Shown: piece after piece, positions 29,634 through 32,998 of the stretch | How positions within the stretch are numbered: position 1 is the stretch's first letter | Layout: each line of letters begins with the position of its first letter | NCBI RefSeq assembly: GCF_003027925.1 | Contig: NZ_PYPS01000005.1 | Location: 1 to 64,000, forward strand | Origin: Micromonospora sp. RP3T | GTDB lineage: Bacteria > Actinomycetota > Actinomycetes > Mycobacteriales > Micromonosporaceae | Length of the DNA stretch: 64,000 nucleotides | Direction: 5' to 3' | Translations under genes and position numbers: made by a program | The notes under the pieces: model-generated | The model's database searches: none | What the model saw: the letters and a program-made list of their open reading frames with translations, nothing else | Told to the model about the DNA's origin: nothing

Positions 29634-30023
29634 TCGATGGTGTCGGGGGTCCATTAGCCCTCGGAGATCGGCCAGCGCTTGTGGTGTAGCGCCTGCGACG
29701 GTGCATGCTTTCCTGCCGCTTCTCAGCCCAGGGCGGTTACGTCCCCGGGGAGTTGGACGACCTGCCGGCGGGTGGACGTTTTGTCTAGGTGTCGACGAAC
29801 TGTGTCTCCCCGAATGGGCATGCGCAGGGTTGATGTTGGCGTCGCCCGCGCACCATGGACCCGGCGCGAGCGGCAACTTCGCCAAGCGGTTGCTAGGCCG
29901 AGTTGTGTAATGGGCGGTGCCGTCCACGCGCGGCGGGTCCTCATCCCTGCCGCTAACATGACCCTCGTCGATCATGCTGCGCTTAACGAGGTGTGTCCGG
30001 TGAAACAGGGGAGGATGTGTATC
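29634..30023. other. Intergenic region without a supported gene
   Basis: No reading frame here has a ribosome site together with recognisable protein sequence, and no tRNA-like fold was found. A TAACAT box at 29953-29958 could be the promoter of the next gene, giving a ~60-nt leader. The base composition falls towards the lower-GC gene downstream. It may be decayed mobile DNA. Confidence 0.4.
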
Positions 30024-30671
30024 GTGGCACTGGATCTGCTTGAGGGTAGAGGCTTCAATGGTGTGGCTCTTGCGGTGGCGTTGGTGGGTCTCATCATCTC
30101 AGGTGTAGCGGCCTACTTCGCCCGCGAGGCCCTTTTTCCACCGAAGAGACGCCTGGCCATCCGCATTCTTGCCCCTGCCCAGTTGCTCAGAAAGGGGTCG
30201 GATGAGGTCTATGGGCTCGAAATCGAGCGCCATGGTCGAGTGTTAGAAAACCCTCACATCGTAACGGTTGTCATCAGAAATACCGGTCGGCATGCGGTTG
30301 CCAGCAATGATTTCGACCAAGGGCGTCCAATAAGGATAGATCTAGGCGCAAGGGTGGAGACGCTGCTCGGGCCGCCGCCGAAGCAAATTTTCTCTGTGGA
30401 TGGAAGTAGCCTCTTGATTGGTCCAGATGTTTTCAAGAGGAAGGTTGAGCTTGTGATCCAGGTCTTGACCTCTAGTCGACCAAATTTCGATAGGAGTAGT
30501 GTAAGCGAGCACTTGGTGGATGCGACTGTAAAGGTCGAAGTGAACCGTTTCTCCGAGTCGGTTGATATTGGCTCCCGACAGCTGAGAGTGAGCGCGATCA
30601 CGGCATCAGCGGGCATGATCATCGCGATCCTAGCGATTCTCAGGGATTATTTTCAATGGAAGGCGGGGTGA
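30024..30671 (+). CDS. Two-TM hypothetical protein of low GC content
   Basis: Protein of 215 aa. N-terminal TM helix (GVALAVALVGLIISGVAAYFA), a central soluble domain, and a C-terminal hydrophobic helix (AITASAGMIIAILAILRDYF). The central motif NPHIVTVVIRNTGRHAVASNDF, then DQGRPIRIDLGA and DGSSLLIGP, recurs in actinomycete proteins of unknown function as far as I recall. The gene is clearly less GC-rich and uses more A/T-ending codons than all its neighbours, so recent transfer is likely. GGGGAGGA lies 9 bases before GTG 30024. The IS481 element sits 119 bp downstream. Confidence 0.65.
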   Translation: MALDLLEGRGFNGVALAVALVGLIISGVAAYFAREALFPPKRRLAIRILAPAQLLRKGSDEVYGLEIERHGRVLENPHIVTVVIRNTGRHAVASNDFDQGRPIRIDLGARVETLLGPPPKQIFSVDGSSLLIGPDVFKRKVELVIQVLTSSRPNFDRSSVSEHLVDATVKVEVNRFSESVDIGSRQLRVSAITASAGMIIAILAILRDYFQWKAG

Positions 30672-30785
30672 GGTCTTGGCACCACGCATATGAATGTTGA
30701 TTTCAAGCTTCAGTAATCTTGGCCGTCTTGCGGCGGAGTCGGAGGCGATGCTGTCCTTTCACGTGTTTGACCTTGCTCAGGTGAG

Positions 30786-31784
30786 CTAGCTGTACTGCCC
30801 AGGGAGGTTGGTCAACCTGGTGACGGGCGGTTTGCCGCCGGTTGCGGTGTGGGGGCGGTGGTGATTGTAGTGATGGAGCCAGGCGGGTAGGGCCTTGCGG
30901 CGGGCGGCTTCGGATGTGTAGCACCGGCCGAAGGCCCAGCCGTCGGTCAGGGTTCGGTGGAAGCGCTCGACCTTGCCGTTGGTCTGGGGTCGGTAAGGAC
31001 GGGTCTTCTTCGGGGTGATGCCGAGTTCCGCGCAGGCGTTGCGCCAGGCGTGGGACCTGTAGGCGGAGCCGTTGTCGGTCAACACTCGCTCGACGGTGAC
31101 GCCCCTGGTGGTGAACCAGGCGACCGCGCGGTGGAGCACGGCGGTGGCGGTGGCGGCTTTCTCGTCCTGGTGGATCTCGGCGTAGGCGACCCGTGAGTGG
31201 TCATCGACGACGGTGTGCACGAACGCGGTCCCGATCCGCGGATCCCGATGGTGGTTGCGGGCGCCGGTGCGGCGGGCGGTGGCCTGCCTGTTGTGTTTGC
31301 CCTGGGCGCGGCCGACATAGCGCCACCCGCCGCCGTCGGGGACCTGGCCGAGCTTCTTGACGTCGATGTGCAGCATGGCGCCGGGGTGGTCGTGTTCGTA
31401 GCGGCGCACGGGCTCCCCGGTGCGCCGGTCGAGGTGCGACAGCCGGTTGATCCGGCAACGGGTCAGGACGGCGTGCACGGTCGAGGCGGGCATGCCGAGA
31501 CGGCCGGCAATCTGCACCGGCCCCAGCCGCTGCTTACACCGCAGGTGCACCACTTTGCGCACCAGCGGCTGGCAGGTGCGGTTCGGGCTGTGACGCGGCC
31601 GGGATGACCGGTCGGCCATGCCGTCGGCGCCGAGTTCGGCGTAGCGTGCCGCCCACCGTTTCGCCGTCGGCCAGGAGACGTCATAGCGTTGCGCAGCCCG
31701 GGCGACCGGCCACCCCTGGTCCACGATCAGACGCGCCAGACGAAGACGTGCACGCGGGGTCAAAGCGGCGTTAGCGTGGGACAC
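30786..31784 (-). CDS. IS481 family transposase
   Basis: DDE transposase of 332 aa. The N-terminal helix-turn-helix region (ARLRLARLIVDQGWPVARAA, SWPTAKRWAARY) is followed by the integrase core, with Asp in MLHIDVKKLG, Asp in LTDNGSAYRS and Glu in NGKVERFHRTL, then HHYNHHRPHTATGG. GTG 31784 is chosen because AGGAGG lies 5 bases upstream. The stop codon TAG (30786-30788) lies outside the element, in the duplicated target GCTAGC: the last codons CAG-TAC-AGC run across the terminal repeat into flanking DNA. The gene looks intact. Confidence 0.93.
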   Translation of the reverse strand: MSHANAALTPRARLRLARLIVDQGWPVARAAQRYDVSWPTAKRWAARYAELGADGMADRSSRPRHSPNRTCQPLVRKVVHLRCKQRLGPVQIAGRLGMPASTVHAVLTRCRINRLSHLDRRTGEPVRRYEHDHPGAMLHIDVKKLGQVPDGGGWRYVGRAQGKHNRQATARRTGARNHHRDPRIGTAFVHTVVDDHSRVAYAEIHQDEKAATATAVLHRAVAWFTTRGVTVERVLTDNGSAYRSHAWRNACAELGITPKKTRPYRPQTNGKVERFHRTLTDGWAFGRCYTSEAARRKALPAWLHHYNHHRPHTATGGKPPVTRLTNLPGQYS

Positions 31785-31907
31785 GAAGGCCTCCTGGTTG
31801 GCGGAGCGGTTCCTAGACAGCTCCACTCCACAACCGGAGGCCTTCGTCATCACGTCTATCTACGTCGTGTCGTCACACAACCTCAACCAACGTCCCTGGG
31901 CAGTACA
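30791..31907 (-). mobile_element. Complete IS481-family insertion sequence with 6-bp target duplication
   Basis: 1117 bp. The terminal inverted repeats extend at least 22 bp with one mismatch; the outer 15 bases at both ends read TGTACTGCCCAGGGA inward (left end 30791-30812, right end 31886-31907). It is flanked by the direct repeat GCTAGC at 30785-30790 and 31908-31913. The single gene is the transposase, on the minus strand. The matched ends and target duplication mean the element moved as a unit and fairly recently. Confidence 0.92.
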
Positions 31908-31936
31908 GCTAGCACATCGGCGGCATGATCGGGGAG

Positions 31937-32017: not shown

Positions 32018-32998
32018 GTGTCAGACGACGAGGAGACGGCCGTACGGCGACGGCTCGCCCGGTTGTTCACGCCAGCGGGTAGGACGGCCGCCGTCCCGCC
32101 TCCTGCCGACAGCGCGCCGGACCTCGTCGGCGCAGGGCCCCCCGAGCCGTCAGTCGCTTATCCCTCTGCCCAGGAGCCGTGGAGTTTCCCGGGCCTCGAA
32201 CCCCGGCAGAGCGAGCCGGACCGTTCCGGACTACGAGGCGGCCGTTCAGAGCCTGCCGCCGGGCCGACCCATCCGTTCGACCCTCACCCGACGTCCACGG
32301 TGGGCGATGCCGCCGGGCGCGAGGAGCCCCAGGAACCCGCGCGAGGTCTGGCCGCCCGGCTGCCCGGTCCGGGGGTGTTCGATCCGGGCCGGCGGGGTGT
32401 CCGTGCCCTCGCCGTCGTGGCCGCGGTCGTCGTCCTGGTGGCCGCCGTCTGGGCGTGGCGATCCCGCCCGAGCGCCGAACCCGTCCGGTCGGTCGCACCG
32501 GTCACCGAGGCGTCGGCGGGCGCAGTGACCGAGAGGGCCGCGCCGGCCGGGTCGTCCGGCCAGGTGGTCGTCACCGTCGCCGGCAAGGTCCGCCGTCCCG
32601 GGCTGGTCCGGCTCCCGGCCGGCGCCCGGCTGGCCGACGCCCTGACGGCGGCCGGGGGAGCATTGCCCGGGATCGACGTGGCGCTGCTCAACCCCGCGCG
32701 GAAGGTCACCGACGGTGAGCTGATCCTGGTCGGCGTCACCGCCCCACCCGGACAGCCCGCACCCGGTCCGGCGGCCGGCGGCGGTGCGCCCGGTGGTCCG
32801 GCGGCCGGGCCGGTCAACCTGAACACCGCCACGCTGGCCCAGCTCGACGCGCTGCCCGGCGTCGGTCCGGTGCTCGCCCAGCGGATCCTCGATCACCGGG
32901 ACCAGCACGGCGGGTTCCGGTCCGTGGCCGACCTGCGTCAGGTCGACGGCATCGGGGACGCCCGCTACGAGCAGCTCAAGGAATTGGTGACGGTGTGA
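32018..32998 (+). CDS. comEA: Competence-type DNA-binding protein ComEA
   Basis: Membrane-anchored DNA receptor of 326 aa. A cytoplasmic Pro/Arg-rich N-terminus precedes one TM helix (about 125-147, VRALAVVAAVVVLVAAVWAW). An SLBB domain follows (VVVTVAGKVRRPGLVRLPAGARL), and a C-terminal helix-hairpin-helix pair begins VNLNTATLAQLDALPGVGPVLAQRI, which binds DNA without sequence preference. It overlaps comEC by four bases (GTGA). Natural competence in this group is uncertain, but the pair is conserved in actinobacteria. Confidence 0.92.
   Translation: MSDDEETAVRRRLARLFTPAGRTAAVPPPADSAPDLVGAGPPEPSVAYPSAQEPWSFPGLEPRQSEPDRSGLRGGRSEPAAGPTHPFDPHPTSTVGDAAGREEPQEPARGLAARLPGPGVFDPGRRGVRALAVVAAVVVLVAAVWAWRSRPSAEPVRSVAPVTEASAGAVTERAAPAGSSGQVVVTVAGKVRRPGLVRLPAGARLADALTAAGGALPGIDVALLNPARKVTDGELILVGVTAPPGQPAPGPAAGGGAPGGPAAGPVNLNTATLAQLDALPGVGPVLAQRILDHRDQHGGFRSVADLRQVDGIGDARYEQLKELVTV

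Follow-up and report, generated by a model that had tools for sequence, protein, structure and literature searches.

The window analysed here is a stretch of 64,000 nucleotides from Micromonospora sp. RP3T (contig NZ_PYPS01000005.1, positions 1 to 64,000). It contains an insertion sequence of the IS481 family at 30791-31907 on the minus strand. The element is 1,117 bp long with the termini TGT...ACA, starts with TGTACTGCCC and finishes with GGGCAGTACA (window orientation), and a single gene, encoding the transposase, fills its approximately 1.1 kb. Terminal inverted repeats are located at 30791-30812, at the 3' end of the transposase gene, where the repeat also codes for the last residues NLPGQY, and at 31886-31907, on the 5' side of the gene. 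The two ends are identical at 21 of their first 24 bases; with the flanking duplication counted in, the inverted repeat extends over 31 nt at 94%. GCTAGC adjoins the element on the left (30785-30790), and a second copy of this 6-bp target duplication follows on the right (31908-31913). The original prediction had placed an IS481 element with terminal repeats between two GCTAGC hexamers at 30785-31913, and this span was exact.

The transposase gene (30786-31853, minus strand) encodes 355 amino acids from a GTG start codon assigned by the ORF tool. Its product scored 340.8 bits against the NCBIfam profile NF033577 (transpos_IS481; curated cut-off 224) and contained the Pfam domains rve, rve_3 and LZ_Tnp_IS481. 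The residues D164, D260 and E296 were invariant across 15 aligned transposases, with 35 residues separating the last two, and judging from this alignment they would form the DDE catalytic triad. The element thus showed all tested features of the IS481 family, namely the profile match, the DDE residues, the TGT...ACA ends and the lone gene, as well as those of IS481 elements with a borrowed stop codon: an NCTAGN duplication on both sides and no internal stop.

The reading frame of the transposase leaves the element as CAG-TAC-A/GC-TAG, where the slash marks the border. Thus, the element contributes a single base to the last codon, whose other two bases, like the entire stop codon, are host DNA. 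The TAG (30786-30788, minus strand) lies completely within the left target duplication, 2 nt beyond the element end. That the frame crosses the left terminal repeat and ends at the TAG of GCTAGC had been predicted correctly to the base, and the element indeed lacks a stop codon of its own.

The genome of this strain contains one full copy of the element and some fragments. Relatives with similar ends and NCTAGN flanks are present in many genomes, the nearest named ones including Micromonospora, Streptomyces and Nonomuraea contigs. Insertion sequences can move between genera. The gene adjoining the insertion sequence on one side (32018-32998) encodes SLBB and helix-hairpin-helix domains; from the domain order, its product is presumably ComEA-like. 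The open reading frame on the other side (29679-30671) had no Pfam match. The tetramer CTAG occurs 17 times in the window, compared to approximately 155 occurrences expected from base composition. With this roughly nine-fold depletion, the element uses a scarce site.

Targets and stop codons of related copies

Related copies were collected by DNA, protein or profile match with the flanks disregarded. They were obtained from named genome contigs, from viral contigs, from whole-genome searches totalling 1,464 genomes, some of them counted repeatedly, and from 160 further stretches chosen from search listings. The element ends were set by the match of the repeats, the TG..CA termini and the equality of the flanks; CTAG was not used. 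Removal of 65 duplicates, 11 loci without the C-terminal part and 4 without any match reduced 441 loci to 361 distinct ones. Another 89 were dropped because no convincing pair of ends could be assigned: they lay at contig ends, were truncated, were longer cargo elements or belonged to distant subgroups. Among the remaining 272 loci, 48 had duplications differing at 1 or 2 of the 6 bases, and 224 distinct copies had identical 6-bp flanks. The latter comprised 196 copies without a stop codon of their own (stop-less copies) and 28 with an internal stop codon (own-stop copies). Suspected own-stop elements were fetched deliberately, so their share is no estimate for the population. The sample consists of standing copies, mostly actinobacterial, and these are related by descent; consequently, the counts are not independent. 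Protein clustering resulted in 95-130 clusters among 194 stop-less copies and 22-27 among the 28 own-stop copies. Proteobacteria were sampled poorly, and searches of viral contigs yielded 27 and 2 loci. The Streptomyces lycii contigs (L035-L041) break at or close to copies of this insertion sequence, and thus the copies there cannot be judged fully. Two distant IS481 relatives (L140, L141) exhibited apparent 14-nt duplications and stop codons 63 and 44 nt inside the element, and apparently form a subgroup that selects its targets differently.

In a first set of loci matching through the transposase end, 89 of 99 displayed the pattern CA-N-C-TAG and an in-frame stop. The other ten were five loci running off the contig (L037, L038, L041, L056, L057), one with an internal TAG (L064) and four without the pattern (L005, L024, L026, L073). 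Across the 196 stop-less copies with intact duplications the target core was CTAG in 188, CTAA in three, TTAG in three, TTAA in one and CTAC in one, which bears out the predicted preference for CTAG. Mechanically, insertion there completes the gene: the listing of other duplications proposed along with the prediction revealed an in-frame stop exactly 2 nt beyond the element in 194 of the 196 copies, TAG in 190 and TAA in four. Even outside CTAG, seven of the eight copies still obtained TAG or TAA. One of the two exceptions, a copy whose profile match ends early (L080), reads on to a TGA at +97. The other (L375), inserted at CCTACG as judged from both sides, continues for at least 485 nt without a stop. 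Its transposase frame (L375/L459) runs into a downstream host frame to give 731 amino acids in total, and the fusion partner is, by motif, presumably of the patatin type. Five copies of this element were fetched from the same genome; the other four have CTAG on both sides. Hence both findings that had been named as speaking against the original prediction, namely copies outside CTAG (8/196) and a copy without a stop soon after its end, do occur.

The own-stop copies carry their stop codon starting 12-33 nt before the element end, or as TAG at -7 in two copies. Their target core was CTAG in 26 and GTAG in two of the 28 copies. The two GTAG insertions differ in their flanks and thus represent separate events. 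The use of CTAG did not differ between stop-less and own-stop copies (188/196 vs 26/28; Fisher p=0.36). Central TA was found in all 224 targets, and only few targets (10/224) deviated from CTAG. Concerning orientation, the intact duplications included one CTAC in a stop-less and two GTAG in own-stop copies, which are few cases.

When up to two mismatches between the flanks were allowed, 235 stop-less copies with the stop at +2 were obtained. Their right-hand cores were CTAG in 224, CTAA in six, TTAG in three, GTAG in one and TTAA in one. One such CCTAAC right flank, with TAA at +2 (L221), adjoins an element whose ends we take to be IS481-like. This is a near-match to an insertion at CCTAAC described for IS481 of Bordetella pertussis, which has the NCTAGN consensus in common with the relatives of the window element, although its transposase is distant (PMC3053399).

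The near constancy of CTAG beside the element ends could be taken to mean that the ends were set wrongly and that CTAG is part of the element, which would make the stop codon internal. We rejected this explanation as highly improbable, since the core varies within one element on both sides at once: single elements were found with differing duplications that match on both sides (G330, G446, G999), among them TCTAAC in G446 and CCTACG in G999 next to CTAG copies. The empty-site comparison proposed earlier could be carried out in part. The left flank (30300-30785) had no counterpart in 159 other genomes of the genus apart from one 26-bp match, so the right side alone could be matched to relatives free of the insertion sequence. 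In seven such relatives the right flank directly follows another hexamer, namely GATAGC (twice), GTTAGC, GTTATC, GCTACC, GCCAGC or GGTAAC, with a central TA in six of the seven, which likewise speaks against wrongly set ends.

Exit frame and target choice

The frame of stop-less copies leaves the element in a single useful phase, A/NC/TAG. This phase was found in 195 of the 196 copies, comprising L375 besides the 194 copies that stop at +2; the exception was L080. A count of 213/213 for the same phase is no evidence, because the stop-less copies concerned had been chosen by their stop at +2. In the phase A/NC/TAG every YTAR target (CTAG, CTAA, TTAG, TTAA) yields TAG or TAA, and in the remaining two phases CTAG yields no stop. 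The orientation of the insertion is irrelevant, as CTAG and TTAA are palindromic and CTAA and TTAG are partners. The border codon, A-N-C or A-N-T, is always a sense codon for Ser, Thr, Asn or Ile. Among the 235 copies the base opening the target was G in 90, C in 88, A in 30 and T in 27, and consequently the last residue of the transposase is a matter of chance. Tail lengths of stop-less copies were mostly 58-73 nt in steps of three. For 34 internal-stop copies the exit phase was 0 in 30, 1 in two and 2 in two. By the stop offsets recorded in the survey, the target TAG was out of frame in 26 of the 28 own-stop copies with intact duplications.

The evolution of both states was followed on a quickly built tree of 48 stop-less and 32 own-stop transposases (80 in total), which has long branches at the outgroup and for which thinning had retained proportionally more own-stop rows. 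The tree required at least five changes of the stop state; well-supported branches made four of these unavoidable. Own-stop rows were nested within stop-less groups at several places. Two single own-stop rows (L064, L129) have TAG at -7 where the window element has CAG. This pattern fits a target specificity that is independent of the stop state.

The original prediction had been right about a stop-less element that inserts at CTAG and thereby completes its gene; its further conclusion, that target choice is coupled to transposase integrity, was not supported. According to this idea, CTAG targeting persists since the transposase gene is completed at such targets alone. The immediate stop in nearly all stop-less copies, its presence in seven of the eight targets outside CTAG and the single useful exit phase would be expected if this were the case. 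In addition, five stop-less copies with CTAG on the left had a changed right core, and four of these still stop, with TAA in L211, L221 and L421 and TAG in L291; only L208 has no stop. We rejected the idea nevertheless and regard it as unlikely, since own-stop relatives, which have several origins on the tree, keep CTAG just as faithfully with its TAG out of frame in almost all of them. Furthermore, a symmetric recognition site would account for the YTAR variants, and L375 as well as, by its published length, ISRme5b (PMC4803752) inserted without a prompt stop following. Supply offers no explanation for YTAR: the window contains CTAA plus TTAG 12 times and CTAC plus GTAG 246 times.

A correlation of the same kind would be expected in stop-less elements if insertion were wide and only copies gaining a stop persisted. 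Such survivor bias was likewise rejected and can hardly be the cause, because the same targets are found in own-stop copies and in copies with an incomplete transposase. Since CTAG flanks both ends of all six copies with a profile-incomplete transposase segment, not all of which are certainly broken, the pattern does not require a subsequent filter for function. Moreover, one-sided losses do not spare the side of the stop codon: the right side was lost or spoiled in three copies (L005, L276, L208) and the left side was lost in three others (L044, L307, L386) and in a cargo element (L093).

Building on the observed anatomy of the element, its frame and the target statistics across its relatives, we propose that the transposase recognizes a palindromic YTAR target, strongly CTAG, which would give rise to the 6-bp NCTAGN duplication. 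The transposase gene, which lacks its own stop, exits in the sole phase, A/NC/TAG, in which YTAR provides one. Target choice would be intrinsic to the transposase and independent of the stop codon. With a stop provided by the target in nearly every case, the element could dispense with its own, which could have been lost or gained several times. We consider this explanation as a whole, intrinsic targeting with the borrowed stop as its consequence, very probable. As the own-stop copies use CTAG to the same extent, the choice of CTAG looks like a property of the transposase from which the borrowed stop follows, and the site preference is probably not there to supply the stop. If selection acts at all, it seems to maintain the exit frame and not the target choice, and the common exit frame could also stem from shared ancestry. 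There are signs of weak selection via the stop, for which the deviating targets (7/8) and the changed right cores (4/5) leave room; the latter, by keeping the stop, make adaptive coupling slightly likelier and intrinsic targeting slightly less so.

Larger IS481 transposons with cargo genes

The survey also revealed cargo-bearing IS481 elements of approximately 2.2-3.6 kb (with two length estimates for L100), whose transposases are about 65-81% identical to that of the window. Here the stop codon of the transposase likewise lies within the CTAG adjoining the element end. In three copies of two transposons a cargo regulator additionally extends outward across the opposite end repeat to a stop codon within the other duplication copy. 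Two of these copies (L104, L108) represent one 3,491-bp element, 93% identical, with unlike flanks. The regulator gene of L104 (490-1518) runs outward and encodes 343 amino acids of AraC/DJ-1 type according to Pfam with the tail NVSGQY. In L108 the same outward 343-amino-acid gene (490-1518) terminates at the TAG of the hexamer on its own side, the two hexamers there being different (CCTAGA and GCTAGG). Plasmid relatives of this AraC-type regulator align up to residues 325-339 of 343 (15 records listed); thus, its last residues lie outside the usual extent of the family. The third copy (L109) carries an outward gene for a WYL-domain regulator of 361 amino acids (1497-2579) that stops in the other flanking CTAG. 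A counterpart of this regulator on the Corynebacterium jeikeium plasmid pA505 has its own TGA and is located in a 2.5-kb IS481 transposon flanked by TCTAGC on both sides. A search for the WYL-cargo transposon in 198 genomes resulted in six matches in five genomes, which are candidates by their cargo.

A shorter case (L107, 1688-2152) comprises the DNA-binding part only and is probably a truncated cargo gene. Other cargo elements have a short outward frame in this phase, and therefore cargo read-through is not the rule. In a search of open-licence papers, no cargo gene was found to be described as terminating in the target duplication. An IS481 transposon of actinobacterial type whose cargo is ArsR-like and ArsP-like was present in a record titled Vibrio cholerae 35D (L112), which may be mislabelled or stem from a contaminated assembly. 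Open reading frames of a Microcella MAG (L106) share their tails with this transposon.

Borrowed stop codons in the IS481 family

Borrowed stop codons have been reported for other IS481 members in PMC2516522 (2008), PMC4803752 (2016) and PMC6794481 (2019), and therefore the window element is another member of a known phenomenon. ISLxc2 and ISLxx4 of Leifsonia xyli share with it the NCTAGN duplication and a stop codon in the host insertion site; ISLxc2 is also an IS481 element of 1,105 bp with the ends TGTG..CAGGGACGTTGGT but differs by an in-frame stop close to its start (PMC2516522). As the same source suggests, structural constraints may be set by the translational end. For ISRe46 in TnRErm46 of Rhodococcus equi an NCTAGN duplication whose TAG is the transposase stop has been described (PMC6794481). 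Unlike the window element, TnRErm46 is a 6.9-kb cargo transposon carrying erm(46). Its left end repeat supplies a TGA to a hypothetical gene, which comes near to our cargo regulators without being the same, and its left duplication terminates some host genes (both PMC6794481). ISRme5 of Cupriavidus metallidurans also belongs to the IS481 family and has a frame without a stop inside the element. Its four copies would encode 333, 463, 321 and 321 amino acids; these differing lengths indicate that a prompt stop is not guaranteed. For other such elements the same paper cites Redenbach 1996 and Tauch 1998 (PMC4803752).

Taken together, the end repeat and the duplicated CTAG could act as a portable stop cassette at both ends, serving the transposase at one and in some cargo elements an outward regulator at the other. 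Own stops, being dispensable, would then be repeatedly lost and regained in the manner of a neutral ratchet. We put this joint reading forward tentatively, as an attractive possibility that may well prove incorrect.

In the earlier papers considered here the bearing of the borrowed stop on target choice was only suggested. The present comparison offers an initial answer: the target is kept by elements that have become independent of its stop, so specificity seems to have come first and dependence second. Annotators should be aware that host DNA provides the stop and some bases of the last codon in these transposases, as it does in some cargo regulators, and that these bases vary from copy to copy. 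The IS481 family thereby offers a well-counted example of a gene made dependent on its surroundings.
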